Positions 29,178 to 43,934 of a stretch of 64,000 bases of DNA are shown in pieces. The position numbers and the translations under genes are program-made. Each line of letters begins with the position of its first letter. Position 1 is the first letter of the stretch. Origin of the DNA: Allorhodopirellula solitaria (lineage in GTDB: Bacteria; Planctomycetota; Planctomycetia; Pirellulales; Pirellulaceae); contig NZ_SJPK01000012.1 in the NCBI RefSeq assembly GCF_007859855.1, positions 1-64,000 of the forward strand, in the 5' to 3' direction. The notes under the pieces are model-generated. The model made no database searches, was not told the origin of the DNA, and saw only the letters and a list, made by a program, of their open reading frames with translations.

Positions 29178-29220
29178 TGGGCGATACAGAACTCGAATCT
29201 GTGACCTCTGCCGTGTGAAA
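29178..29220 (-). repeat. Left attachment site of element 1 (tRNA-Val 3' fragment)
   Basis: 43 nt identical to the 3' part of the tRNA-Val gene at 43861-43934. It stops abruptly within the anticodon loop; the next bases (ACGAATAA) no longer match the tRNA. Confidence 0.95.
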
Positions 29221-29398
29221 ACGAATAAACCATGCGTTGCACGGAAAGCCCGGTCTCGTTTTAGCCCGTTATTTACGTGAAAAAACTCGCAATCGGTGTC
29301 ACATAGGACGTTAGCGAAGCACGCCCAATGTTGCAATAGTTGCATCCAAACGGGACAGTCTTGACCTCTGCCGGGAGTCCGCAGCTTGATTTTGCCTG
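29221..29398. other. Left end of element 1, non-coding
   Basis: About 180 bp between the attachment repeat and the last small gene. No gene seen. It may contain recombinase arm sites, but none is evident by eye. Confidence 0.4.
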
Positions 29399-29467
29399 TC
29401 ATTTTTCAGCCCGTTCGAGGATGTATTCCATCACCGAAACTGTGCTGAACCGCCGATGCCCAATCAT
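29399..29467 (-). CDS. 22-residue peptide, excisionase-like tail
   Basis: Begins at an ATGA overlap with the stop of the preceding gene and reads MIGHRRFSTVSVMEYILERA plus two residues. GHRRFS followed by a short helix is the usual end of a MerR/Xis-type winged helix, so it may be the remains of a larger HTH protein or a frameshifted tail of the gene before it. Confidence 0.35.
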   Translation of the reverse strand: MIGHRRFSTVSVMEYILERAEK

Positions 29468-30579
29468 GGCATCATCCCAGCGATCGCCCGGTCGATCTCA
29501 CGCCTTCGTTGACTGATCCCACTACCGGGAACCCGGCGGGGCCGGAAATTGACGCCTAGCGGCTTGGTCGGCTCACTCGGCTCGGATGTCGCGATTGCAC
29601 TTTGAACGCTCTGAGAGTCGACGTCAGGAACCCGTTTTTCGCCTCCGTCCGACTTGGCACCTCGCTGTCGGTCGATTTGCTCCATTCGCTCGCCTCCGGC
29701 CACCTCATCGGCAGTTGCGAACCGTTCCAGCCCGGCGGCGGTGAGTTTCCGAAACGTGATCCCGGCGGTGATCCACGTCGCGGCACCTTCTGCTTGGCCG
29801 GACTGGGTGACCGATGCGCGAATCGATTCAGCTTCGTCGCTTTGGATCCTCCGTCGCTGATCATCGCGGCGGAGTACCTCGAACACGTCGAACGGCGGCG
29901 GGGTCTTGCCGGTCAACCAGTTCGATAGCTGTCCCGGCTCCCAGCGATTCGGGTCACGGTCCCCTCCAGCTTCCAAGAAGAGCTCCCGAACGTACTCGAT
30001 CGACCAACCACGCTCACGAGCCGAGTCCACGGCTTGGGCGGCTGTTTTCAAACCCCATCGAAACATTTCCGCCACCACCGCCCCCCATTCGTCTGGGCGG
30101 TTGGTGGTGGGCGATTCTTGGGCGATTAAATGGGCGTTTCGGGGTTCATGGTGAACTCTCGGGGATGCCTCAGTGAGCTCTGGGAGGTGCCTCAGTGAAC
30201 TATCTAAGGTGCTCCCATGAGCGGCCGAGAGCTCATCATGGTCGCTCGTGATCCTCTGCATCTCAGTCCAATTGATTCGGTGATGGTTTGGGCTCCAGTG
30301 ATTCGGACGTTCACGAGTGATCAAGTCGCGGTCGACCAGGGCGGCGATGCCCCGGCGAACAGTGGAAACGGCGTACCCGGTTTCCTCTGCGATTGTCTTT
30401 TGACTCGCAAACGATGCCCGGCTTCCTTCGTGATCATCGATCGCTTTGAGCACTGCTTTCTGAACCGCGCCAGACACCCGGCCCGATGGACAGGTGTGCG
30501 TCGAGAGTTTCAGCCGCCTGAGCGCGGCGAGCTGCTCGCCGCGAGGCAAGTCGGTGAATAGATCCTGTTGGTGATTCAT
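29464..30579 (-). CDS. Winged-helix protein, probable replication or regulatory protein
   Basis: 371 aa. Residues about 40-100 form a winged helix: AVLKAIDDHEGSRASFASQK, TIAEETGYAVSTVRRGIAAL, VDRDLITRERPNHWSPNHHR. The middle (about 165-235, with EWGAVVAEMFRWGLKTAAQA) is helical; the C-terminal 100 residues are polar and probably disordered. The layout is that of phage or plasmid replication and host-takeover proteins. It overlaps the upstream gene by 4 bp, so it is the distal part of the element's long leftward operon. Confidence 0.7.
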   Translation of the reverse strand: MNHQQDLFTDLPRGEQLAALRRLKLSTHTCPSGRVSGAVQKAVLKAIDDHEGSRASFASQKTIAEETGYAVSTVRRGIAALVDRDLITRERPNHWSPNHHRINWTEMQRITSDHDELSAAHGSTLDSSLRHLPELTEASPRVHHEPRNAHLIAQESPTTNRPDEWGAVVAEMFRWGLKTAAQAVDSARERGWSIEYVRELFLEAGGDRDPNRWEPGQLSNWLTGKTPPPFDVFEVLRRDDQRRRIQSDEAESIRASVTQSGQAEGAATWITAGITFRKLTAAGLERFATADEVAGGERMEQIDRQRGAKSDGGEKRVPDVDSQSVQSAIATSEPSEPTKPLGVNFRPRRVPGSGISQRRREIDRAIAGMMP

Positions 30580-31055
30580 CGGCCCACCTCGCTTTCACCT
30601 TGGCTGGCGTTTTGCATCGATCTCGCCTCGGCCTTGGTCATTTCATAGAGGTGCGTGAAAGCGTCGTCACTCATGTGCTCGATGTCGTGCAGCCTGCACC
30701 AATCATCAGCCCACTCGTCGACGTCGAATTGGAAGTGCGACCACAACGTGCATTCTGTGGTCACAACATCGAGCGGTCGCACCTGGCCTGGTTCCAACAC
30801 AACCAACCGGGCGTATCCCTCGAACGTATTCCCAGGAAACGAGTCGCGGATACTGTCGACATGATCGGTGATCTCGATCAGCTCGCCCACTCCGGATACG
30901 CCTGGTCGCACCCCGATAAATTCGTAGTGGGTCGTAACGCACCCGCGATTGAACCGGTAGTGGGCCTGTCCTCCGGAAACACGGCAATCGACCGCATGGG
31001 CGGAGTCTGACTGGTTGAGATTGTCGGCAGCGATGTGGTTAGGTTTGACGCTCAT
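30576..31055 (-). CDS. Hypothetical element protein (159 aa)
   Basis: Begins MSVKPNHIAADNLNQSDSAH, contains a beta-rich core (HYRFNRGCVTTHYEFIGVRP) and an acidic helical C-terminus (WADDWCRLHDIEHMSDDAFT). No family recognised. Start and stop both overlap neighbours by 4 bp (ATGA), which strongly supports its reality. Confidence 0.7.
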   Translation of the reverse strand: MSVKPNHIAADNLNQSDSAHAVDCRVSGGQAHYRFNRGCVTTHYEFIGVRPGVSGVGELIEITDHVDSIRDSFPGNTFEGYARLVVLEPGQVRPLDVVTTECTLWSHFQFDVDEWADDWCRLHDIEHMSDDAFTHLYEMTKAEARSMQNASQGESEVGR

Positions 31056-31309
31056 TTCGTCACCTCACCTTTCGATGTCGCTTCCTGATTGGCATCGGCA
31101 CGGCGGCTGGCCTCATCAACTCGCAGCTTTCCGGCACGTCGCCTCCTGGCATTGCGGGCGTTGTCCAATTTACGCGCGGCAACGTCCGCCCCTTGGGCGG
31201 ACAATCGTCTTGAACATGTTGCGCAGAGAAACGCGGGCCACCGGCAACAGAGCGTTGCCCCGGACGCGCCGCAGCATTCACACAGTTTGGCTTCTGACGG
31301 TCTTGACAT
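31052..31309 (-). CDS. Small zinc-binding protein (85 aa)
   Basis: From ATG 31309 it reads MSRPSEAKLCECCGASGATL, then LCATCSRRLSAQG: a C-x2-C ... C-x2-C zinc ribbon in the first 40 residues, followed by a basic helix. Such proteins often bind nucleic acid. It couples by ATGA overlap to the next gene. Confidence 0.6.
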   Translation of the reverse strand: MSRPSEAKLCECCGASGATLCCRWPAFLCATCSRRLSAQGADVAARKLDNARNARRRRAGKLRVDEASRRADANQEATSKGEVTK

Positions 31310-31350
31310 TGGAAATGTCGACTTCCGCAACCACATTTTTTTGGTTGCGC

Positions 31351-31469
31351 ATGAATCGGCCCGGCATCCCTGTAGAAAACACGGGACTTACTCCGTGTCG
31401 ACATTCTCGTTGCTCCCCGCCTGCGCGGATCAATGCTTCGATGTGTCCAGAAATGCCGGGCCGATTCAT
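31351..31469. repeat. 17-bp perfect inverted repeat, 85-nt spacer
   Basis: ATGAATCGGCCCGGCAT (31351-31367) and its exact complement (31453-31469) can form a long stem around 85 nt. Both strands start an ATG at the arm. Confidence 0.9.
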
Positions 31470-31688
31470 TCTCGCTCGTTTAGATGTAAGTCTTGGCATG
31501 GTCACCGCTGGGAAAAGAAACTCCAGCGGTCAAGCGTGATCAAGTTTTCTAGTCCTGATCTCGCTGCCAACGATGCAACGAATTTGTCCGATCCTGGCCG
31601 CGCTGTCAAGCTCGATCAGGATTTTGTTTCGGGGTCGCTCGCAAAGTGGGGCGGAAGTGGCGGGATTTGCGGGGTGGAATTGGGGTAC

Positions 31689-31796
31689 TGTGGAAGTGAC
31701 CGTGGGCCTCGTTGGTTGGTGCATCCGACGGCCCTCGGGTCATCGGTTGAGGCATCGGGTGTGGAAGTGACCGTGGGCCTCGTTGGTTGGTGCATC
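31689..31796. repeat. 37-bp direct repeat, 71-bp period
   Basis: 31689-31725 and 31760-31796 are identical (TGTGGAAGTGACCGTGGGCC and on to GGTGCATC). The intervening 34 bp are not repeated. Confidence 0.95.
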
Positions 31797-31954
31797 ACGT
31801 GTAAGCCAAAGGTCAGAATCCTGACGCTCATTTGATGGTATCGCATCAGTGATTGAACCTCGATTGACTTTTCCAGCAGCACGCCTGGGTTGTACTGTCG
31901 TGGCTTTTCGCGTCGGTGTCCATGGTGCAAGGGTCAGCATCCTTTAAGTTTTGC

Positions 31955-32239
31955 TCAATCGCAATCGCAAGAGCCCTGCTCTCTCTGACCCTGACCCTGA
32001 CCCTCATCAATCATTTGTTGGCACAAGGCAGCGAGTTTCATGTAAAGACGACTGTTCACGATTATTACTGGTATCGCTTCCCTGCAGGTTTCCAGGAACG
32101 CACGCTCGGCCTCTGTGAGCATCGCAGGATTATCGTCTTCCGCTTGATCAATCCAATCTTGCAAGTGCTCGGCTTGGATGCGAAAGGAATCCCCAGCGGT
32201 CTCATACGCCAGCGGAAACTTTGGATTGTTGACTAGCAT
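31955..32239 (-). CDS. Hypothetical protein after the tape measure gene (94 aa)
   Basis: Reads MLVNNPKFPLAYETAGDSFR and is mostly helical (AEHLQDWIDQAEDDNPAMLT, LTEAERAFLETCREAIPVII). Its end has GQGQGQREQG from a short GACCCT tandem repeat (31988-32005), so the C-terminal length may vary between strains. It lies 1 bp after the tape measure gene's stop, on the same strand. No family recognised. Confidence 0.6.
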   Translation of the reverse strand: MLVNNPKFPLAYETAGDSFRIQAEHLQDWIDQAEDDNPAMLTEAERAFLETCREAIPVIIVNSRLYMKLAALCQQMIDEGQGQGQREQGSCDCD

Positions 32240-32240
32240 A

Positions 32241-34802: not shown

Positions 34803-34813
34803 GATTTGTTGCC

Positions 34814-35344
34814 TTATCCTCTCACCACGTTGGACCATGCACCGGCGACGGTGCCTTTTGCGATCTCACGATCGAGTGCCACTGACATGAAGGGCCGTGC
34901 CCTAATGTGTACGACTCGCGAACGGTCGAGCTTTTGTAGTTTTTGCTTTCCCCGTTTGTTGCGTTTGCCTTTTCCTGCAGAGATCAAGGTGCCTCTGCGT
35001 TGGATCACCGATCCACCGTGCTCGAGCACTCCCGGCACAGGCGTTGGACCCACCCAACTACCATTCGTCTTCACGGGCCCGACGACACCGCTAGACGTGG
35101 CTGCGTCGTAGGCAAACCAGATGTTTTTTAATGATGTAACCCGGCTCGTCGAGCGTACCGAAGGCGGACTACCAGGCCGACTGACTCCTACGCGTCTGCG
35201 CAGTACATCTCGCTGGGCCGTCCGCCGAATGTAGGCGAGCGATTTGCTCATCGCACGAAGTTCGGCACGATCCACCGCATCAATGACCGCCTGGCGGTCA
35301 AAGAACGCTTGCTTCATGTTCATCGTGATTTGAATCGCCATCAT
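34814..35344 (-). CDS. Probable tail-completion or HK97 gp10-like protein
   Basis: 176 aa: an N-terminal helix with ELRAMSKSLAYIRRTAQRDV, a Gly/Pro-rich beta part (GPVKTNGSWVGPTPVPGVLE, EHGGSVIQRRGTLISAGKGK) and the ending RARPFMSVALDREIAKGTVA. The order helix, EHGG-type loop and RPFM near the C-terminus recalls head-tail connector and gp10-like proteins. It overlaps the upstream gene by 4 bp and precedes the tape measure gene. Confidence 0.55.
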   Translation of the reverse strand: MMAIQITMNMKQAFFDRQAVIDAVDRAELRAMSKSLAYIRRTAQRDVLRRRVGVSRPGSPPSVRSTSRVTSLKNIWFAYDAATSSGVVGPVKTNGSWVGPTPVPGVLEHGGSVIQRRGTLISAGKGKRNKRGKQKLQKLDRSRVVHIRARPFMSVALDREIAKGTVAGAWSNVVRG

Positions 35345-35646
35345 TTCCGCCTCTCGCGCCTTCGCTCGCGTCGTTTGATTCGTTCGTACTCGTCAGTCGC
35401 GTTCACCGATTCGCCCTTGTCCGGTCGTTCCATATGGGGATGAAAATCAGCTCGCGTGCAGGGATTGCCCGAATGCATCGACGCAAGCAACGCCATCGTC
35501 TCGGCCGTGTGGTTCCACTGCTCCGTGCAATGCGCGGTTGCCGCCGCGATCAGCTCACGCATCGTCAGCGGCCACGGATCCACGCCGGATGTCGCGGCTA
35601 GCTCGACGACGATTGTCCATCCGTTAGACCCAGCTCTTTCCGCCAT
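35341..35646 (-). CDS. Small protein overlapping the tail-chaperone-like gene
   Basis: From ATG 35646 (MAERAGSNGWTIVVELAATS) it is 101 aa: a helical core (PLTMRELIAAATAHCTEQWN, AETMALLASMHSG) and a very basic tail (EYERIKRRERRRERRK). It lies in the -1 frame relative to the gene at 35598-36065 and overlaps it by 49 bp, the arrangement of lambda G and T tail chaperones. The -1 frame itself is open up to 35796. Confidence 0.6.
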   Translation of the reverse strand: MAERAGSNGWTIVVELAATSGVDPWPLTMRELIAAATAHCTEQWNHTAETMALLASMHSGNPCTRADFHPHMERPDKGESVNATDEYERIKRRERRRERRK

Positions 35647-36065
35647 TGCGTCTCCATCGCATCCATGAGTGAATCGAGCCGCCCATTCGTCGCGAGTTCG
35701 ACTTGCCGCGCTCGCAGGTCCGTCGTCAGTCGTATTACTCGCCTTGTCGTCTGGTACTCCTCGATCCGCCCGTAGCGGTGGAAAAAAAAAGCACACTCCT
35801 CCAAGAATGCGATACTCGCGTCCTGTGCTACGGAGTCGCCAGCCAATCGGTCTTCAAAATCGTCAATCGATATGGAGTGCTCTTTCGCCTGCTCCTCACA
35901 CAACAGAAACACGAACGCGAGCTGATCCGTCAGACTGTCCAGGATCTGGGCGTGATGGAGTGGCTTGAGCAGATCGAGACCCAGCTTCTCACGGATCTTC
36001 CTCACCTTCCCCAGCGTCAACGCGATCGTCCACGTCTGCCCCTGGTTGTCCTTGAACGTCTGCAT
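35598..36065 (-). CDS. Probable tail assembly chaperone (lambda gpG-like position)
   Basis: 155 aa beginning MQTFKDNQGQTWTIALTLGK, a beta hairpin typical of tail-assembly proteins, followed by helices (KVRKIREKLGLDLLKPLHHA, LTDQLAFVFLLCEEQAKEHS). Its place before the tape measure gene and the -1 overlapping ORF behind it support the call. Codons 93-95 form a TTTTTTTTC run with a U UUU UUC heptamer in phase for -1 slippage (35787-35781). The family is inferred, not proved. Confidence 0.55.
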   Translation of the reverse strand: MQTFKDNQGQTWTIALTLGKVRKIREKLGLDLLKPLHHAQILDSLTDQLAFVFLLCEEQAKEHSISIDDFEDRLAGDSVAQDASIAFLEECAFFFHRYGRIEEYQTTRRVIRLTTDLRARQVELATNGRLDSLMDAMETQWRKELGLTDGQSSSS

Positions 36066-36099
36066 CTATCATGATCTCCGGTGTAAAGGCGAGAACGCC

Positions 36100-36123
36100 T
36101 GGTGGTTGATTGAAAAACCACCA
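36100..36123. other. Short hairpin between tail-type genes
   Basis: TGGTGGTT (36100-36107) pairs with AACCACCA (36116-36123) in the 200-bp gap before the chaperone-like gene. It could be a weak terminator or an RNA processing site. Confidence 0.5.
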
Positions 36124-36268
36124 TGACAAACCGACGAGTCCGACCGGTCGCCATGGTGGGGAGCGTGCTAAGCCTCAGCGGGAATCACGCCCGCCGATCA
36201 CATCCTGTGGTAGCCACGAAAGGAGTAAGCTGGCCATTTTCCCACGGCTGCAAAGCGTTAGACGTCCG

Positions 36269-36877
36269 TTATTTCGTTTCGAGCGTCGTGACCGAATCCA
36301 AGCCCTGTTGCCTCAAGATCGTGTTCACCTGGTCAACGTGCATCGCGTCGACTCTTGCCTCTGACTCCTTTTCGGATGCGTCAAGACGTTTGCGAATGCC
36401 CGTGATCACGGTCGAGAAAACGGCGTTCACCTCGGTGCCGTCAAAGAGTTCGGGGTTCTCATCTGCAAGCCTTTGAACCCGGGCCTGGGCTTCGGTCATC
36501 GCCGCGTGCTTTCGGCGCTCGACGTTACCGATTCGCTGAGCACGTTTTGACTTCGCGGCGAACACCAGGAAATCACGCTGGGCGGACAATACGCGCTCGT
36601 GACTGCCGTTCGCGTTGATTTTATTGATTTGCGACTGCGCGACCGCTTCGCAAACCTCCTCGATCGCTTGCCGCGTCTTCGCGAAATCCGCCTCGGTCAG
36701 GTCGAGAGCCTGCATCACGCCAATCAACTGGTCGGCATCTTCGGCAGTGGCCTTACCCAGGTAGTCACGCTTGGCGATCGCGAAATAAGTCTTCCGCTCC
36801 TCCGCCAGTGCGTCCGTCAGCAATTGTTTGTCTTCGCTACGGATCTCGGCGATTCGGTCTAACACGCTTGTCGTCAT
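36269..36877 (-). CDS. Helical element protein of unknown function (202 aa)
   Basis: Almost wholly helical: MTTSVLDRIAEIRSEDKQLL, ALAEERKTYFAIAKRDYLGK, LTEADFAKTRQAIEEVCEAV, RRKHAAMTEAQARVQRLADE. The pattern suggests a coiled coil, as in scaffold or assembly proteins. No family recognised. It lies between the HTH-bearing protein and the chaperone-like gene. Confidence 0.65.
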   Translation of the reverse strand: MTTSVLDRIAEIRSEDKQLLTDALAEERKTYFAIAKRDYLGKATAEDADQLIGVMQALDLTEADFAKTRQAIEEVCEAVAQSQINKINANGSHERVLSAQRDFLVFAAKSKRAQRIGNVERRKHAAMTEAQARVQRLADENPELFDGTEVNAVFSTVITGIRKRLDASEKESEARVDAMHVDQVNTILRQQGLDSVTTLETK

Positions 36878-36934
36878 GGTTGGTTCCTTTTTGGAGGAGG
36901 TTAAAGAGTCGCTTCGGTTGCGGTTGGTCAGTGG

Positions 36935-37723
36935 TTAGAACGCCAGCTGCGTCAGGCGAGCGTCGTTCAATTCGAGCCCGCTGGAAAACGCGGAAAATGG
37001 AATCGACTGGGTGACGCGGACGGGATTGGATCGGCCTTCGATGCTGCGAGATTCCGTGAACGAGACCGCCAGCTCTGTGAGTGCGTTGGCCAATGCCAGG
37101 CTGAAAAGACTCTTAAACCGCTCTGGGCTTGCGTAAAGCTTCGCGATGTCCGAAGTCATCCCTTCCGCGCCCGAAACTTTCAGTTGGCGAACCTTCCGCT
37201 GGGCTGCGTTGCGGATTTGGGTAACCAGCGCGGCCTGTCCAAAGCTCAGCGTTGTTTCCGACGCTCCGAAACTCGCGGTCTGTTTTTTGTTGAACGCGTT
37301 CCGCATCGCTTCTGTCGGTCGGGCTTCAAACTTGAAACTGGTCTCGCGGCGGTTGGCTTGGAATGCGGCAACCAATTGCTGATCGGTCACCTTCGCCAGC
37401 GTGGTCCCGGCTTCACGAATCTTGCTCTGGAATGTGATACGGTCGACTTCACCGCGAGAGGTCGCGAACCATCCGGAAGCGAAGAGGGACGTTTTGATGT
37501 TGGGAGTGCCTTGCCCGATGAATCGCTCGGCATCGGCAAGAAACACGACTGAACCTTTGGAATCTCGGGTATCAGGGAGGTTTCCAAATGCGATAGCCCG
37601 TTTGACGGAATGCGGCTCGCATCGGAACATCTCAGCGGCTTGGTCGATGGAGAGGATTCCCGCTGGAGGCGTGTACTCGGTTCCAGGGGTCTCACGCGTT
37701 CTGTTCGTCATGGATTTTGGCAT
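36935..37723 (-). CDS. HTH-containing element protein (262 aa)
   Basis: Residues about 22-70 form a MerR/Xis-like helix-turn-helix (GILSIDQAAEMFRCEPHSVK, RAIAFGNLPDTRDSKGSVVF). The rest is unfamiliar (FKFEARPTEAMRNAFNKKQT, FGQAALVTQIRNAAQRKVRQ, then SIPFSAFSSGLELNDARLTQ). In position it replaces what would be a major tail or capsid gene in an ordinary prophage, so a structural role for the C-terminal part is worth testing. Confidence 0.6.
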   Translation of the reverse strand: MPKSMTNRTRETPGTEYTPPAGILSIDQAAEMFRCEPHSVKRAIAFGNLPDTRDSKGSVVFLADAERFIGQGTPNIKTSLFASGWFATSRGEVDRITFQSKIREAGTTLAKVTDQQLVAAFQANRRETSFKFEARPTEAMRNAFNKKQTASFGASETTLSFGQAALVTQIRNAAQRKVRQLKVSGAEGMTSDIAKLYASPERFKSLFSLALANALTELAVSFTESRSIEGRSNPVRVTQSIPFSAFSSGLELNDARLTQLAF

Positions 37724-37991
37724 CGTTGGATTCCTCGGGAATTATCCGAACCTCGTAGTAGTGGTCGATTCGCCTTGTGCCGCAAGCCTTGCATTTGCAT
37801 CGCTTGGACGACCTGTGTGTCCACGGCGATGATTCTGTAGGCGTCAAGACCACACTTCGGCCTCGGTTGTAGGGGTCGCGTTCTGTGCATCCGCATTGTG
37901 GACACTGGCGACTCTCACCGAAGGTTTGAGTGGTAACCGGTGCTCGGCTGCTACTCGCAATATTAGGCGATGAACCTTTGGTTTCGTTCAT
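37692..37991 (-). CDS. Small zinc-ribbon protein (99 aa)
   Basis: From ATG 37991 (MNETKGSSPNIASSSRAPVT) the protein has C-x2-C-x-C in RQCPQCGCTERD and C-x-C-x2-C in KRCKCKACGTRRID, a zinc ribbon comparable to phage Ogr/Com-type regulators. The upstream part of the longer frame is a shadow of the gene at 38146. It overlaps the next gene by 32 bp. Confidence 0.6.
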   Translation of the reverse strand: MNETKGSSPNIASSSRAPVTTQTFGESRQCPQCGCTERDPYNRGRSVVLTPTESSPWTHRSSKRCKCKACGTRRIDHYYEVRIIPEESNDAKIHDEQNA

Positions 37992-38145
37992 AGAGTGTTC
38001 CTTGTCGAGGACTAACCTTGTTAGAAATGTGGGTGGGCGGTATCGGCTCGGGAATGTCTGTCCAATGTCTGATTGAGTGCGGCTGTTCCCTTTGGCATCG
38101 AGGGTGCGGGGGAGGGGGGAAGTACCTACTTTTTTTTGGGATTTG

Positions 38146-38355
38146 CTAGATCGAGTCAAATTTCGATTGAATGACCGCCTGCACACGATCCATTGCTCTA
38201 TCGGTGTCGTCGAATACTCTAGGAACCCCAGGATCCCCTGGGAAATTCCTCTCGAGGACGTGTCCGAATTGGCGGAGCAGATCCGCCATCTGGCCAATTT
38301 GTTCATTGATGGATTCGCCGATTTCCTGAATGGATTCGTCGTCGGGCTTGGGCAT
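38146..38355 (-). CDS. Small acidic helical protein (69 aa)
   Basis: MPKPDDESIQEIGESINEQI followed by GQMADLLRQFGHVLERNFPG; strongly helical, with a C-terminal second helix. Size and charge suit a small regulator or anti-repressor-like protein, but nothing specific can be said. It fits the co-directional gene order. Confidence 0.5.
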   Translation of the reverse strand: MPKPDDESIQEIGESINEQIGQMADLLRQFGHVLERNFPGDPGVPRVFDDTDRAMDRVQAVIQSKFDSI

Positions 38356-38452
38356 TTTGGGTTCTCGTTGGTGGTTGGCAAAAAACGTCGTGATTCGGTG
38401 CCGTTGGCGGGGCTGAGCGATCGCGATAGCGGTGACGTGGTGGTGATCGGTT

Positions 38453-38743
38453 TCATGGCTTCACCGGCCTATATCCAAGGAAGCTCCCGCAAGCCTCGCA
38501 CTCCGAGCGAATCCATCCCTGCCGGCCGGGGGCGGGCTTATCGACAACGGGGGCAATGCAAGCGAGGTGCGGGCGACATCTCACACTCACAATCGAGGTC
38601 ACTTCTTCGCGACTCCTGGTCAGGAATTCCGCTTCGTCATGGGACAACTCCCCGTGCGGAATTGAATAGACAATGCGATTGTCGCGGATCTTCAAAACAA
38701 CTCCGCGACCTTCCATGAGGGCAATTCGCTCAGAAACTACCAT
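38453..38743 (-). CDS. TubC-N-like docking domain with zinc motif (96 aa)
   Basis: Start 38743 (MVVSERIALMEGRGVVLKIR) overlaps the helicase gene by 14 bp. The first 55 residues match the TubC N-terminal docking-domain pattern: LMEGRGVVLKIRDNRIVYSI, GELSHDEAEFLTRSREEV. Cysteines at CRPHLAC and CEACG may bind zinc. In mobile elements this domain is often attached to primases or helicases, so a link to the DnaB-type helicase upstream is likely. Confidence 0.6.
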   Translation of the reverse strand: MVVSERIALMEGRGVVLKIRDNRIVYSIPHGELSHDEAEFLTRSREEVTSIVSVRCRPHLACIAPVVDKPAPGRQGWIRSECEACGSFLGYRPVKP

Positions 38744-40088
38744 TGGACCCACCCCCAAAGCCTGTGTCGTAGCCCAGGAACTCATCATGCGGCGTCGTCT
38801 GCTCTCGGGTTGGCGCGTCAGCGTCGACGAACCAGGTCGACGGCAAGTCCATTCGCATCGCATGGCGACCAATTCGCCCGTTCCTGACCTTTGCGAACGA
38901 GAATATCGTTTCAGGGTCGAGCGGCTTCGGTCGGTAAAGAATGATCACGTTGTCGCTGTCGGCTTCGACCGACGTGGAGTCTGCGATGTGAGATAGCTTC
39001 GGGCAGCCTTCGGCCTTGTCGCCTTCGCGATTGATCTGGCTCGCCATGAACACCGGAATTTCAAGCTCTCGAGCAAGTCGCTTCATTGATCGCGAGAAAT
39101 TGGCAATCCCGTCAGACCGGAACCGTTCTGGGTACTCGACCAAGCCAATGTGATCGATGAACAAAGCATCGAGGCCGGTTGTCGCCTTCTTGTTTCTTGC
39201 GGACGCTGCGACGGTGCTGGCGCTCTGTTGCGACGAGTCGTTGATAAACAGCCCCAACTCCCTGTAGCGATCCAACGTGTTGCGGAGCTTGGCTATTTCG
39301 CTCGCATCAACAGAGCGATTCGCCATTTGCTGGCTACACACGCCCGCGTCGTTCCCAAGGAATCGCCGTGCGATTTCTATGGAGGGCATCTCCAGAGAAA
39401 AGTAAAGGACCTTCTTTCCGTCCATTGCGATGTTAACGGCTGACTGAACGCAGACGCCCGACTTCCCTACTGACGTTCTCGCGGCGATCGTTGTCAAGCT
39501 GCCATTGGTGAACGTCCCGAAGCATTCGTCGACGGCGGGAATCCCCGAATAAACCCCGCCCTCGGAATCAGACTCCTGCTCTAAATGCTCTATCGCAAGC
39601 AGGCCAGCCTCATATGCCGAGACTTCACCTCGTGCTGACTCAGTTGCTCGCGTCGCCGTCGCATCGCGAATCAGCGAATCGAGCAAGCTATCCAGCGACG
39701 TCATCGGATCTTGGATCTCGGCAGACGCCTTTCTGAGCAAAGCGGCAACTCTCCTGCGATTGGCCAGGTTCTTGATCTGGCGTGCGTAGGTCGGCGCGTT
39801 TGGAGGATAACCGGAACTGTCCATCAGTTTGGCTATCCTGGCCATGCCGCCGACAGCTCCGAGTGCGTCAACGGAACGCAGATGACTGACCAATTGTGTG
39901 AGGTCGGCGTGATCGCCTCCGCCGTCGACCATGTCACTGATTTCAGCGAATAGGCGACGGCGAGTCCCTGTCATATCGTCGGCACTGATGATCTCTCGAG
40001 CGGCGTGGATCTGCTGCCGATCAATCAGGATCGAATAAAGCAATGCCGTCTCGATGTCTTCGGTCTGCTCTGGGTGAGGGTCTCTCAT
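38730..40088 (-). CDS. dnaB: Replicative DNA helicase, DnaB type
   Basis: 452 aa. N-terminal domain (EQTEDIETALLYSILIDRQQ, LTQLVSHLRSVDALGAVGGM), then the RecA-like domain with Walker A ARTSVGKSG (about residue 205), LYFSLEMPSIEIARRFLG, Walker B GLDALFIDHIGLVEYP and FMASQINREGDK. It overlaps the initiator gene by 4 bp, as lambda-type initiators are followed by a helicase or its loader. It should load at the iteron-bearing origin next door and drive replication of the excised element. Confidence 0.93.
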   Translation of the reverse strand: MRDPHPEQTEDIETALLYSILIDRQQIHAAREIISADDMTGTRRRLFAEISDMVDGGGDHADLTQLVSHLRSVDALGAVGGMARIAKLMDSSGYPPNAPTYARQIKNLANRRRVAALLRKASAEIQDPMTSLDSLLDSLIRDATATRATESARGEVSAYEAGLLAIEHLEQESDSEGGVYSGIPAVDECFGTFTNGSLTTIAARTSVGKSGVCVQSAVNIAMDGKKVLYFSLEMPSIEIARRFLGNDAGVCSQQMANRSVDASEIAKLRNTLDRYRELGLFINDSSQQSASTVAASARNKKATTGLDALFIDHIGLVEYPERFRSDGIANFSRSMKRLARELEIPVFMASQINREGDKAEGCPKLSHIADSTSVEADSDNVIILYRPKPLDPETIFSFAKVRNGRIGRHAMRMDLPSTWFVDADAPTREQTTPHDEFLGYDTGFGGGSNGSF

Positions 40089-40984
40089 TTGGATCTCCCT
40101 GCTGACGTGGGCCGCTTGAACTTACGTTCCATTTGGGGCGGATCGTCGGCGGACTGCTGCGCCGTGGAAATAGGCGTGTCAGGCTCAAATAACCCGGCCC
40201 ATCCGCTCTTTATTGACTTCTCGATCGCTGCGATTGCCTTCGCCTCTCCCATCGCTGCGAGATCCTTGATCTGGAGCGAAGCCGCGTTCTCGGTGATCGG
40301 CTTGCGGCGGGCTTTTCGATCCGAGCACCACGACGACCACGCATCACGGAAGCGATCGGTACGCAGCACGGGCGGCAGGTCGATGCCCTCGGGCGAGAAC
40401 TTCGGTTTCTTTGGCTTTCGCTTTTTTCCTGAAGGAGAAACGGCGGCGGCAGCCGCGCCCTCTTCTTTAGGTATAGGGTTAGGGATAGGGTTAGAAGGCT
40501 TTCCGCTTCGTGTTCCGCAACGTGTTCCGCAACGTGTTCCGCTTCGTGTTCCGCTTCGTGTTCCGCTTCGTGTTCCGTATTCGGAATGCTTTCCGCTTCG
40601 TGTTCCGTATTCGGAATGCTTTCCGTTATCGGAATGGGTAGGCTCAATTGGCGTATCGTCGAAGCCCGACACCGACGTTGGAATCTCGGTCCAATAGTGG
40701 CCAACAGATCGGTCGTTGGTCCGGTGGTAGACCAACCAACCGGCGTCGACGGCAGCCTCTCGAGCATTGTTGAGTTGCTTTGGACTCTTGAACCCTAGGA
40801 CCTCCATCAGCTGCGAATTCCAGAACCGAACTGGTCCCTGGTATCGTGCCGCGTCCTCTGTGTGGGCGATATGGATCACCAGGCAAACGGCGTGATGCCC
40901 AATCGATTGAGCTGCGCAGCCCTTGAACAGTAGGCGGGTGATCCTGTGTGCATGATGTGATTGACGGGTTGGGTATGGGGTCAT
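40085..40984 (-). CDS. Lambda-O-like replication initiator with internal iterons
   Basis: 299 aa from ATG 40984, set by an ATGA overlap with the gene before; the longer frame is not supported. The N-terminal 120 residues are a winged helix (HAHRITRLLFKGCAAQSIGH, HAVCLVIHIAHTEDAARYQG, FWNSQLMEVLGFKSPKQLNN), as in phage O-type initiators. The middle (about 118-160) is a low-complexity run of SGTR and HSEYGTR repeats that comes from tandem DNA repeats. The C-terminal part (FRDAWSSWCSDRKARRKPIT, LAAMGEAKAIAAIEKSIKSG) is helical and may contact the helicase. Confidence 0.8.
   Translation of the reverse strand: MTPYPTRQSHHAHRITRLLFKGCAAQSIGHHAVCLVIHIAHTEDAARYQGPVRFWNSQLMEVLGFKSPKQLNNAREAAVDAGWLVYHRTNDRSVGHYWTEIPTSVSGFDDTPIEPTHSDNGKHSEYGTRSGKHSEYGTRSGTRSGTRSGTRCGTRCGTRSGKPSNPIPNPIPKEEGAAAAAVSPSGKKRKPKKPKFSPEGIDLPPVLRTDRFRDAWSSWCSDRKARRKPITENAASLQIKDLAAMGEAKAIAAIEKSIKSGWAGLFEPDTPISTAQQSADDPPQMERKFKRPTSAGRSK
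40508..40640. repeat. Iteron array inside the initiator gene (candidate origin)
   Basis: Five 12-bp units CGTGTTCCGCTT/CGTGTTCCGCAA stand head to tail from 40508, then two 30-bp units made of CGTGTTCCGTAT plus TCGGAATGCTTTCCGCTT, then a degenerate one. Just to the left is AGGGTTAGGGATAGGGTTAG (40473-40492). Iterons within an O-type gene directly before a helicase gene are the layout of lambdoid origins. Confidence 0.75.
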
Positions 40985-41337
40985 CGTCCAGCCCTCCGGC
41001 TCCCCGCGAATCGTCCGAACAATTCCGCGATCGCGATCTCGTACGCGATCGATGTGCCGAGCAGCTCGTCGCGCACGTGCCAGCCGACCAACTTCGCCGC
41101 AGACCTCTTGATTGACTCCCATTTCCGCCACCAGTCGAGCGTACGGCGTCGACGGCACCCGCAGCCTGCCTGTTCGACCCGCTTGGCGAGAACGCCCAAG
41201 CGGGGCTCGAGCTCGACCAGGTCCCGCCACGTATGGGGGCGTGGGATCATGGGGTAGTGATGGCCAATCGCCCATTTATCAATTGACCGGTATGCTGAAT
41301 CGCGTATCATATGTGATGCCTCGGGCCTCCAACCCAT
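40981..41337 (-). CDS. Hypothetical element protein (118 aa)
   Basis: Basic protein: WAIGHHYPMIPRPHTWRDLV, LEPRLGVLAKRVEQAGCGCR, LGTSIAYEIAIAELFGRFAG. No family recognised. Its stop overlaps the initiator start by 4 bp. A frame on the opposite strand is present over the same ground but has no such coupling. Confidence 0.6.
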   Translation of the reverse strand: MGWRPEASHMIRDSAYRSIDKWAIGHHYPMIPRPHTWRDLVELEPRLGVLAKRVEQAGCGCRRRRTLDWWRKWESIKRSAAKLVGWHVRDELLGTSIAYEIAIAELFGRFAGSRRAGR

Positions 41338-41412
41338 TGTTTGATTGCCGCTTGCGACGGCATGAATAGAAAACGAAAGCCATCGAACTGTCAGCTCAGC
41401 TCGATGGTTTTT

Positions 41413-41703
41413 TTATTTCTTGGCGGTGCGGCGAATCGGCTGGGGGCCGATCGTCTTGGCCGTGCGGGCGGCGATGAACCGAGTGAGTGCCTGCCGACTG
41501 GTCAGCAGGTGCGATCCCCCAATACGAACGGCCTCCAATCGGACGCCTCCTACACCTCGATGAATCCACCTCGTCATGGTGGCTTTGTCTGGCCGTTTGC
41601 CCGTGATGTGGCGTAGCTCGGCGCGGGCGTCGGCTAGTGTGAGGACGTCCTCGCTCAGGATCTGAGATACCACCGTTTCGGCGGTGGATGGGGTGATAGG
41701 CAC
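41413..41703 (-). CDS. DUF1580-type HTH protein, probable excisionase
   Basis: 96 aa. LTLADARAELRHITGKRPDK, ATMTRWIHRGVGGVRLEAVR and IGGSHLLTSRQALTRFIAAR give the planctomycete DUF1580 pattern, a winged-helix fold like MerR/Xis: recognition helix near TRWIHRG, wing near VRLEAVRIGG. A related protein (48467-48712) also sits next to the other integrase. That pairing suggests a recombination directionality factor. Confidence 0.75.
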   Translation of the reverse strand: MPITPSTAETVVSQILSEDVLTLADARAELRHITGKRPDKATMTRWIHRGVGGVRLEAVRIGGSHLLTSRQALTRFIAARTAKTIGPQPIRRTAKK

Positions 41704-41822
41704 TGTGGATACTCCTGTGTGCGGTGCGGCGGAATTGCAACACGGGGGAGTATCAGGGGGCTGTGGACGCTCAGCCGGATGTGCCGCTTATTTGCCGCTT
41801 ATGCCGTATGTTTGCCGCTTGT

Positions 41823-42497
41823 TCACGTTTCGATTTGCCGCTTATCGAAATAGAACAGCCGTCCTTTCGGCGGGACTAGTTGGATCGCAGCGACTTCGTT
41901 TGCAACGACCATCCTTCGGAACTCTCGCTTCTTGTGATCTGGGGAGTATTCGACGTTGCGGAAATACCGCAGCGCCGCTTTTGCTTGGCTCATCGCTTGG
42001 GTTCGATGCTCCTCGGGTATCGTGGATCTGACTTTATCGTCACCTGTGATCTCCTCGGGTGATGCCGTCCCGTCGTCGCCTGATATTGCTTTCTTCTTGG
42101 CGACGCCGTCAATCGATTCCATTCTCTCCAGCAATCGTGCCTCCAGTACCTTTTTCCGTGCTTCCGTCACGACCGAAACGGCCTCCTTGAATGAGATATT
42201 GTTGATACAGTAGCCTTCCTCCTCCAGCCAATAGAGGACTTCGGTTAAATCCTTGTATGGCAATCCCAGGTCTCTCAGTTCGGCCCTGATTGCGTTAAAG
42301 AACGCATCAGCTCGCGCCTGGGCAATTGCGCGTTCATTGGCAACGGATGCCTTCCTCTCTCCAGATTCCAGCCAACGATACATTGCAGCCGGATCGTCTG
42401 GGTCGGCCTTTCCGCCTCCAGGAAGCGAAAGAGGCTGTTGGTTTACAGGAACGAACAGCCTTAATTTCTTTTGGAACCAGTAGTCTTCGACAGCCAT
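41823..42497 (-). CDS. Hypothetical element protein (224 aa)
   Basis: MAVEDYWFQKKLRLFVPVNQ, then a helical middle (ANERAIAQARADAFFNAIRA, LPYKDLTEVLYWLEEEGYCI, SFKEAVSVVTEARKKVLEAR) and a C-terminus with KAALRYFRNVEYSPDHKKRE. No family recognised. It lies between the integrase and the DUF1580 gene, on the same strand. Confidence 0.65.
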   Translation of the reverse strand: MAVEDYWFQKKLRLFVPVNQQPLSLPGGGKADPDDPAAMYRWLESGERKASVANERAIAQARADAFFNAIRAELRDLGLPYKDLTEVLYWLEEEGYCINNISFKEAVSVVTEARKKVLEARLLERMESIDGVAKKKAISGDDGTASPEEITGDDKVRSTIPEEHRTQAMSQAKAALRYFRNVEYSPDHKKREFRRMVVANEVAAIQLVPPKGRLFYFDKRQIET

Positions 42498-42612
42498 CGT
42501 TCAGAATCCCTTAGTGATAGAAGTCGCTGCCGATCCATCGAGCATCGCTAAGGGACGATGACGACGGACCGGCGGCGCGGGGATCAATCCGCTGGCGACA
42601 GTGATTTCGTTT

Positions 42613-43740
42613 TTAGCCGTTCGTTAACCGTGGTGCAACCTTGGCGGCTTCGATGGCTTTGAGCTCCGACACCTTGGCATAAATCTCCGTGGTGCTTAGG
42701 CGGCTGTGCCCCGCCAATGCCTGGGCTCCCTCGGGGCCCTGGACATCTCGGACAGCTTGAAGCGATGTGTGCCGAATCTGGTACGGCGTCCAGTGTTCGG
42801 CCTTGGCCGCTTTGGCAGCGCGGCGGATCGCAATCCGAAACGCGTCTTTGTTCCATGCGGTCCCCTTCTCGGTCATGAAACAGGGTTGGTCGGCATCACC
42901 GAATAGAAACGGCGTCAGGGCCTCCAGGGCATCGCCCAGGATCGGCACGGCCTTCTCTTTTCCGTGGTGCTCGGTCTTGTGCCGAGCTGGTCGATAGAAC
43001 CAGACCTCACCACTCCTGTCGATCATCGATGGCGTCATCGAGAACATTTCGCTAGGACGCATCGCGGTCGCCAGCTGCAAGCGGACCATAGCGGCGGCAG
43101 TTGACGTCAGGTGTGGTAGCGTCGCCTGGACCGTCTCGAGCGATACGCCTTTGCGTTTCGGATTCTCTCGGGCCTGTCCACGGCGCAGCGGCGGCAGTGA
43201 TCGCAGAGCGACAATCCGCTCCGGCGAGACCAGTTCACGGGAAACCCCGTGCTCGATGATCTTGATGATCTTGCGGGCTTGATCATTGGCGTAGGGCCTC
43301 GAGTTGGGCCGGTGCTTCTTACCGATACCTCGGGCAATCAGCACGTCTCGCATCGCCTCCAGCTTTCTCGGGCCAAACTCCTCGGCAGGTTCATCCCCGT
43401 GCCGCTCGTCCAGGAAGTCGCAAAGGTTCGCGTACTTAGACTGGTTCGCTGGGTTGCTCTCATGCAGCGGCAGCACCCGCGCCCGGAAGTCGGCAGTGAT
43501 GTGTTTGACTCGAACGACCGAATCGGCAAGCCGTACCGCCTCCGCTTCGCCCTCGTCCTCAGCTTTCTCAGGTGCCTGCTTCCCATTGGCGTTGTACTCA
43601 GCCAACAAGGAGTAATACCTCGCATAGCTCTCAGGTGAACCGTGCTTGCCGAGGTAGAAAACCTCGTGCCCCAACCGCACCCTGGCTTGGCCGCTCGTGT
43701 GATACGAATAGGCAGGTTGCTCGCTTCGTTTACGTGGCAT
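42613..43740 (-). CDS. int: Tyrosine recombinase (integrase) of element 1
   Basis: 375 aa from ATG 43740 (MPRKRSEQPAYSYHTSGQAR). The N-terminal arm-binding and core-binding domains are followed by the catalytic domain: first Arg in QLATAMRPSEMFSMT, box II in EHWTPYQIRHTSLQAV, GHS in ALAGHSRLSTTEIYAK with the nucleophile Tyr. The usual His of H-x-x-R is Tyr here (PYQIRH), a trait shared with the integrase of element 2. It lies 120 bp from the tRNA-Val gene, its target. Confidence 0.93.
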   Translation of the reverse strand: MPRKRSEQPAYSYHTSGQARVRLGHEVFYLGKHGSPESYARYYSLLAEYNANGKQAPEKAEDEGEAEAVRLADSVVRVKHITADFRARVLPLHESNPANQSKYANLCDFLDERHGDEPAEEFGPRKLEAMRDVLIARGIGKKHRPNSRPYANDQARKIIKIIEHGVSRELVSPERIVALRSLPPLRRGQARENPKRKGVSLETVQATLPHLTSTAAAMVRLQLATAMRPSEMFSMTPSMIDRSGEVWFYRPARHKTEHHGKEKAVPILGDALEALTPFLFGDADQPCFMTEKGTAWNKDAFRIAIRRAAKAAKAEHWTPYQIRHTSLQAVRDVQGPEGAQALAGHSRLSTTEIYAKVSELKAIEAAKVAPRLTNG

Positions 43741-43860
43741 CGGCGAATCTCCTTCGATCGATTCAGGACAGTCCTTTGTCCCGGAATGATCCGATTGGGA
43801 GCCGCTCGCCATGATGGCGGTAACGCGTTTGATGCGTTCCAGCAGGGATAAAATGAGAAG

Positions 43861-43934
43861 TGGGCGATACAGAACTCGAATCTGTGACCTCTGCCGTGTG
43901 AAAGCAGCGCTCTAACCAACTGAGCTAATCGCCC
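43861..43934 (-). tRNA. tRNA-Val (anticodon CAC), attachment site of element 1
   Basis: A 74-nt cloverleaf on the minus strand: acceptor GGGCGAT/ATCGCCC, D stem GCTC/GAGC, anticodon stem CTGCT/GGCAG with loop TTCACAC, T stem ACAGA/TCTGT with TTCGAGT. CCA is not encoded. Its 3' 43 nt are duplicated at 29178-29220. Confidence 0.97.

Follow-up and report, generated by a model that had tools for sequence, protein, structure and literature searches.

A tRNA-Val element of Allorhodopirellula solitaria with its own tail assembly chaperone and tape measure protein, a probable phage satellite in the Planctomycetota

The PLE satellites (phage-inducible chromosomal island-like elements) of Vibrio cholerae encode a tail assembly chaperone (TAC) and a tape measure protein (TMP) and build chimeric tails with parts of their helper phage; the PLE TMP replaces that of the helper in the particles, the tails of which are 10 nm shorter, and deletion of tmp in a PLE costs 96–99.9% of transduction (PMC12987554). 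In that report, which appeared in 2026, the PLEs are called the first satellites known to make chimeric tails, and the legend of its Extended Data Fig. 10 mentions putative tmp genes in cf-PICIs and other Vibrio elements (PMC12987554). Chimeric tails with a satellite's own TMP have so far been demonstrated in Vibrio (cholera) satellites. Here we describe an integrated element of the planctomycete Allorhodopirellula solitaria, which lies in a window of 64,000 nucleotides (the whole stretch analysed, positions 1 to 64,000 of contig NZ_SJPK01000012.1, here C12, of a 6.8-Mb genome in 62 contigs). We consider it somewhat more likely than not that this element is a planctomycete phage satellite making chimeric tails from helper parts and from its own chaperone and TMP. 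A phage satellite was also the first candidate named in the initial annotation of this DNA, and it is the one that the evidence favours. No title on planctomycete phage satellites was found among those listed in the literature searches.

The element resembles the PLEs in being integrated, in carrying its own tail assembly chaperone and TMP, and in a presumed reliance on the capsid proteins of a helper. It differs in having a tyrosine integrase (PF00589), a replication module of the O/DnaB type and no recognised baseplate hub, in the additional genes p176, p262, p202 and a zinc-ribbon gene, and in the phylum of its host; the comparison was made with the published description of the PLEs. The integrase of the PLEs is a large serine integrase, and the tyrosine integrase in the window therefore sets the element apart from them by integrase type. 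It appears to represent a new satellite family that shares the strategy of the PLEs, and chimeric tails may be formed in this planctomycete element as well. The cf-PICIs (capsid-forming PICIs) are likewise satellites with a subset of structural genes, but these include capsid, portal and terminase genes, from which they form capsids and packaging machinery of their own, whereas the element in the window has no recognised capsid or packaging genes and does not group with them; its relative L088 (compared loci are numbered with L, genomes with G) has a capsid protein and a protease and no portal or terminase of the families searched. In addition, the element is like the PICIs and P4-like satellites in its size of 10–15 kb (the size range of PICIs, PMC11364771), in its attachment (att) site boundaries, and in having an integrase, small helix-turn-helix (HTH) proteins and replication genes. 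In the window, the small HTH proteins stand together with a phage-like O/DnaB module. The hallmarks of the PICIs are a PICI-type regulator, rep/pri and helper-interference genes, and neither PICIs nor P4 satellites are known for TMP or chaperone genes.

The ends of the element are set by an exact direct repeat of 43 nt with a start-to-start spacing of 14,683 bp, and an intact tRNA-Val(cac) gene contains the right copy as its 3' part; the 43-bp att repeat proposed before is thereby borne out, and an exact repeat of this length at a tRNA-Val gene is not chance. All the retained genes of the element are on the minus strand. An IMG/VR viral contig (L021) already covers 13,165 bp of the element, and its matching element genes are 100% identical. 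A search for the empty att site via flank synteny found the left-flank genes never beside the right-flank gene in seven loci of the same genus. The boundaries and the tail block are as follows.

29178..29220, no strand: attL, a 43-bp copy of the 3' part of tRNA-Val, direct repeat identical to 43861-43903
43861..43903, no strand: attR, within the intact tRNA-Val(cac) gene 43860-43934 (minus strand)
35598..36065, minus strand: tail assembly chaperone, short form (G-like), 155 aa; homologues adjoin TMP genes in prophages and satellites
35341..36065, minus strand: longer, GT-like product of about 240 aa, predicted to arise by a -1 frameshift; the slippery T run is at 35790-35781
34814..35344, minus strand: p176, function unknown, between chaperone and TMP; 48% identical to its counterpart in L024 and 35% to that in L203
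32241..34838, minus strand: TMP, 865 aa; PF10145 (4e-42) and phrog_28 (5.6e-76)

The profile matches of the TMP bear out its earlier naming as a tape measure protein. The gene at 35598–36065 had been called tail-assembly-like and is now read as a tail assembly chaperone encoded in two frames. Its product is 50% identical to that of L024 and 46% identical over 135 aa to that of L203, and an ORF in the -1 frame (35341–35796) overlaps it. A profile of 16 chaperone sequences found a match in 69 of 296 genomes, counting that of the window. At codons 92–100, 12 of the 16 homologues, the window among them, have T TTT TTY as an in-frame heptamer; an xFF motif is present at the slip position in 13, and 12 of these 13 use T TTT TTY, where about 4% per sequence is expected from codon usage. 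Moreover, the -1 frame is open past the stop codon in 15 of the 16 (on average 1.5 and at most 5 in 500 synonymous shuffles), and the +1 frame in one. Since the homologues are related to each other, such probabilities overstate the independence of the observations. The pattern is that of the programmed -1 frameshift of siphophage tail assembly chaperones (G/GT), from which a longer product would be predicted. The departures from it are L096 (see below), L031 and L026 with a different heptamer, and L022 without one. By themselves, profile searches would have left this family unnamed, with one weak PHROG match ('tail protein') in a single member of the 16 and no meaningful match in the PDB. For p176, none of eight family members matched Pfam.

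In Pfam and PHROG scans of 20 ORF readings, no family of portals, terminases, major capsid proteins or lysis proteins was matched significantly, in agreement with the initial annotation, which had recognised no such gene; the one head-labelled match (phrog_280 on the -1-frame chaperone ORF) has an E value of 0.21 and is not significant. Homology searches of the element ORFs recognised no tail tube or baseplate gene either. A search of the whole host genome gave a single match to the lambda-type portal family (PF05136), which lies on contig C1, and none to the gpA-type terminase family (PF20454); other portal and terminase families were covered only by the scans of the element ORFs. A temperate tailed phage would have a terminase, a portal and a major capsid protein, none of which was recognised in the element; its gene content, with att boundaries, integrase, replication genes and an incomplete set of virion genes, agrees with that of a phage satellite.

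Between the replication genes and the chaperone lie three further genes.

37692..37991, minus strand: zinc-ribbon protein, about 100 aa, named by its cysteine pattern; no family match
36935..37723, minus strand: p262, N-terminal MerR/Xis-type HTH and an unmatched C-terminal domain; common to the sister elements
36269..36877, minus strand: p202, all-helical coiled-coil protein (model); common to the sister elements

Both p202 and p262 had been annotated as connector-like, a label that is given up here, as no connector is recognisable in either: p202 appears to consist of helical coils and p262 to carry an excisionase-type HTH. The model of p202 (pLDDT 73.5) is all-helical with long coils, and had no match at E 0.001 in BFVD, to which this search was limited. 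The model of p262, from a four-sequence alignment, has a mean pLDDT of 64.9, with residues 90–180 and 200–250 mostly near 70–88, and Foldseek gave matches to MerR/Xis-type HTH proteins over the N terminus only, none reaching E 0.001 in BFVD or PDB. The structure searches proposed with the initial annotation, made here for these two proteins, have turned up no capsid or terminase fold, and at this modest model confidence neither protein looks like a capsid or terminase; a hidden capsid in p262 or p202 was rejected on the alignments, the models and these searches together. By sequence, p202 is 31% identical over 193 aa to the protein of L189 (E 4e-21), and in alignment A4 it is 24% and 23% identical to the proteins at the same position in L187 and L191. 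A homology of p202 to a 316-aa protein of L055, suspected by eye, was not supported (E 0.38). Neither p262 (searched with its L187 homologue) nor p202 had a match at E 0.01 in 50,697 phage records. The ORF at 37692–38456 is probably just the zinc-ribbon gene of about 100 aa, which is conserved with L187, L189 and L191, and shows a weak match (53 aa, E 6e-4) to a site between terminase and portal of the prophage L203.

A search for the same gene set in other genomes, also proposed at the outset, found relatives of the element. Two of them, L187 and L189, are in G354, a closed 10.98-Mb genome of another genus, and a third sister, L191 (6,149 bp, identical with L195, of Planctomycetales bacterium HKST-UBA42), is cut by contig ends and was the one contig found when genome contigs were searched for p262. 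L187 is 15,351 bp long and bounded by a 45-bp repeat in tRNA-Val(gac). Its order is integrase (44% identity), a 256-aa protein, DUF1580 (55%), proteins of 107 and 363 aa, DnaB-like helicase, O-like HTH protein, a 129-aa HNH-like protein, an 88-aa protein, zinc ribbon, p262 (37%), p202-type protein, a 106-aa protein, TMP (817 aa) and a 144-aa protein. The TMP of L187 matches 252 phage records, and all 15 among the matches listed are annotated as tape measure, while BLASTP gave no match at E 1e-3 between it and the TMP of the window. L189 is identical to L187 at 92% of DNA positions in the zinc-ribbon/p262 stretch and at 95% in the 106-aa/TMP stretch, and the two are not alike in the intervening p202 stretch nor in the integration/replication half; the p202 of L189 is the closest to that of the window, a serine-recombinase-like ORF (named by eye) lies downstream, and the ends of L189 are not defined. 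Across L187, L189 and the window, a p262-p202-TMP arrangement goes together with unrelated integration and replication halves. Neither in L187 (12 ORFs scanned with PHROG, 9 with Pfam) nor in L189 (2 and 1, respectively) did the scans find a family of head or packaging proteins. Portals of the lambda-type family are at 0.95 and 5.80 Mb of G354 and terminases of the gpA-type family at 0.94 and 5.80 Mb (two each), and L187 and L189 (1.69 and 3.79–3.81 Mb) are more than 700 kb from every one of them. The dN/dS of the TMP is 0.118 for L187/L191, a pair with dS near saturation (pS 0.73), and 0.084 for L187/L189; the values for p262 are 0.188 and 0.044, for p202 0.174 and for the 106-aa protein 0.338. 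Judged by these substitution rates, the TMPs of the sister elements are under purifying selection, with a dN/dS of about 0.1.

The chaperone-p176-TMP block of the window is also present in lambda-type prophages of the same bacterial family, namely L024 of the same genus and L203/L204 in a closed genome of another genus, where terminase, portal, capsid, a tail-tube candidate (without family match), chaperone, p176 and TMP follow in this order; L204 moreover has an integrase and a DUF1580 protein 42% and 48% identical to those of the window. These prophages differ from the element by the terminase, portal, capsid and tail-tube candidate, and neither p262 nor p202 turned up in them, the L203/L204 region included. 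The tail genes of the element are a subset of such a helper-type tail operon, and prophages of the L024/L203 type are likely to represent the type of helper and the source of the element's modules. We assume that upon infection or induction of a siphophage of this type the element would excise and replicate, and that its DNA would be packaged by the helper terminase into helper-made heads, with head, packaging, tail tube, tail tip and lysis all borrowed from the helper. The element's chaperone would load the element's TMP, on which the helper tail tube would polymerise, so that satellite particles would carry chimeric tails with a length and injection properties set by the satellite. The least supported step is that p262, with its HTH, and p202, with its coiled coil, might favour the satellite TMP over that of the helper, for instance if they regulate or displace the morphogenesis of its tails or heads. 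We judge it evenly balanced whether this is a previously undescribed satellite family of the Planctomycetota with a tail ruler as its defining cargo, in which takeover by chimeric tails evolved independently outside Vibrio and p262/p202 form a new helper-takeover pair; in such a family the takeover would perhaps extend to head-and-tail size. If true, the presence in a distant phylum of TMP-bearing elements that lack recognisable packaging genes and are held by purifying selection would mean that satellites have resorted to tail takeover repeatedly. The same p262-p202 pair with different TMPs, together with prophages carrying the same chaperone-p176-TMP block, also lets one ask what makes a satellite TMP win over that of the helper.

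Several results weigh against the satellite interpretation, which is drawn from gene content. Most of the chaperone loci examined are ordinary prophages. Ten were chosen for the absence of a listed portal in their vicinity, and five of these (L169, L170, L171, L173 and L174) have portal and capsid genes and were rejected as satellites, so that a lack of head genes is the exception and has to be shown case by case; of the others, L172 and L175 had nothing further matched, L177 allows more than one reading, L176 is located at the end of a contig and L168 is unassigned. The satellite-like locus L096 has a chaperone with neither slip site nor -1 extension, and shows no integrase. The narrow spread of p262 and p202 was also counted against the interpretation: the p262 family search hit 4 of 241 genomes (the window's, G354 with two full-length copies, G357 with one, and G124 with a weak partial match that was not reproduced in a later comparison), the phylum-wide p262 profile 3 of 343 (the window and two weak partial matches), and the single-sequence p202 query 1 of 147, the window itself. 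The 129-aa ORF of L187 has a weak match to an HNH endonuclease (phrog_1271, 2e-4), and HNH proteins are sometimes tied to packaging. In the host genome a single phage-like locus was found, on C1, with portal, capsid and TMP and without a gpA-type terminase, so that a resident helper is not evident and the C1 prophage was rejected as one; no packaging signal common to the element and the C1 region was found, the longest exact match being 16 nt. Finally, the estimates of selection come from the sister elements, one TMP pair of which is near saturation as mentioned above, and from the initiator of the window, the TMP of the window being too diverged.

Among other explanations, the element could be a defective prophage, that is, an L203-like prophage from which the terminase-portal-capsid-tube segment was deleted and in which the tail block was kept by inertia. 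L203/L204 match the window in integrase (42%), DUF1580 (48%), chaperone (46%) and p176 (35%) and have these genes in the same relative order with the head genes in between, and L106, of the window's replication type, has the order int-RepO-DnaB-terminase-portal-capsid. However, the att repeat and the ORFs are intact, the 865-codon TMP included, the two-frame signature of the chaperone is retained, and p262 and p202 occupy the would-be deletion site, neither being found in the L203/L204 region. The sisters, moreover, keep the p262-p202-TMP arrangement despite different TMP and replication genes, with a TMP dN/dS of about 0.1, and we regard decay from a prophage as unlikely. An anti-phage island, whose TMP and chaperone would act as decoys that poison the tail assembly of incoming phages and which would not be carried in particles, is a little less likely still. 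Inhibition of tail assembly is a known strategy of satellites and prophages, as in the cases of Tai (PMC11364771) and Rta (PMC12987554), and the lack of a recognised packaging gene would suit such an island, but the TMP of the PLEs is itself built into particles according to the latter source, and a complete chaperone with its frameshift signature is expected for assembly rather than for poisoning. Ten window proteins gave no convincing match to a defence family (weak matches of 17 bits or less only), on which ground a defence island of known families was rejected.

The initial annotation had also offered a tail-based particle with its own replication and a very small tailed phage. Several genes without assigned function (p224, p139, p94, p159, p262 and p202) could in principle hide structural proteins too diverged to be recognised, but no capsid or terminase fold was found for p262 and p202, and the others are small. 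A tail particle of its own is unlikely because chaperone, p176 and TMP cannot build a tail without tube, distal-tail and baseplate genes, none of which was recognised, and a very small complete phage is unlikely because neither the element nor the ORFs scanned in L187 include a recognisable packaging or capsid gene; no lysis gene of the element was recognised either. A minimal autonomous phage or particle is therefore highly improbable in our estimate, far below a prophage remnant or an anti-phage island, and the satellite making chimeric tails is retained as the preferred explanation.

Other planctomycete elements have the initiator/DnaB half in common with the window and carry partial sets of structural genes, in which TMPs of several types occur. 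L084/L088 is bounded by a 38-bp repeat in tRNA-Lys, spans 16,331 bp and encodes a capsid protein (PF05065, 2.4e-8), a ClpP-type protease (phrog_94, 1.4e-54) and a TMP (phrog_9959, 5.8e-36), and neither a lambda-type portal nor a gpA-type terminase was found anywhere in its genome.

1536..17904 of L088 (genome G226): this element, present in IMG/VR as UViG_2839956492

In G005, a genome of the window's genus, L055 (7476–9727) has a lone capsid protein (PF25209, 1.2e-13) adjoining the 316-aa coiled-coil ORF, and L054 and L057 have a TMP, a recombinase and an initiator at contig ends. L087 encodes a protease, L096 has a chaperone and a TMP beside replication genes, L094 has a TMP at a contig end, and no structural gene was seen in L098. 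A further candidate, L104, was rejected as a satellite, being a phage by its ORFs. In L177 (1112–15536, genome G225) a TMP lies directly beside DnaB and initiator genes with an integrase at tRNA-Met, and another integrase and a terminase-like ORF come next. This locus is ambiguous and was not counted as support; it could be a tandem of satellite and prophage or a single unusual prophage. As for the host itself, the cluster at about 145–169 kb of C1 (L065–L067) comprises a portal, a protease-capsid fusion, a chaperone, a 1321-aa TMP and large tail-side ORFs, and continues with glycosyltransferase-like and radical-SAM-like ORFs (named by eye); a defective prophage and a domesticated gene-transfer-like cluster are both conceivable here. 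Some relatives, G003 for one, have several portal and chaperone matches in their genome.

The remaining genes of the element, for integration, replication and minor functions, are the following.

42613..43812, minus strand: tyrosine integrase, 399 aa; PF00589 (4.8e-16) and phrog_1 (1.1e-24)
41823..42497, minus strand: p224, unknown protein without significant family match
41413..41703, minus strand: small DNA-binding protein of the DUF1580/HTH_17 type, excisionase- or regulator-like; PF07618 (2.2e-10)
40085..40984, minus strand: lambda-O-like replication initiator; phrog_678 (1e-17)
40467..40625, minus strand: probable origin inside the initiator gene, with iterons of about 12 bp (40501-40625) followed by CTAACC/CTATCC-type hexamers (40467-40494)
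38730..40088, minus strand: DnaB-like replicative helicase, 452 aa; PF03796 (3.2e-50)
31955..32239, minus strand: p94, unknown protein downstream of the TMP, an ORF only
31052..31336, minus strand: small cysteine-rich ORF; 30-aa match in the same-genus element L054
30576..31055, minus strand: p159, unknown protein without family match
29464..30579, minus strand: second HTH_36/replication-initiator-like protein, the last gene before attL; PF13730 (9.1e-7) and phrog_270 (2.4e-7)

The integrase is 44% identical to that of L187 and 42% to that of L204, and the DUF1580 protein is 55% identical over 77 aa to that of L187 and 48% over 67 aa to that of L204. Among the loci compared, p224 matched copies of the window element only. 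The lambda-O-like initiator and the DnaB helicase agree with the phage-type replication module claimed before. The start of the initiator is placed at 40984 and not at 41275 because its homologues have their starts near codon 98 of this reading frame; an exception is L086, where the similarity extends further upstream and there crosses a stop. The initiator is 79% identical over 167 aa to that of L055 (dN/dS 0.055). Of 13 initiator homologues examined with a tandem-repeat finder, 12 have arrays of 11- or 12-bp units and 11 have arrays of 6-bp units, and such internal arrays in most homologues suggest an origin within the gene, which is probable here; the origin of lambda likewise lies within O. 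The attL-side initiator-like protein is 48–50% identical to four copies in G005, which are on different contigs. Just inside attL, the sequence at 29362–29385 has a 79% partial match to the att core region and could be a trace of an earlier integration. Furthermore, a 22-nt inverted repeat (31351–31469, with 75 nt between its arms) and a 37-nt direct repeat (31689–31796, copies 71 nt apart) both fall between the p94 gene and the small cysteine-rich ORF.

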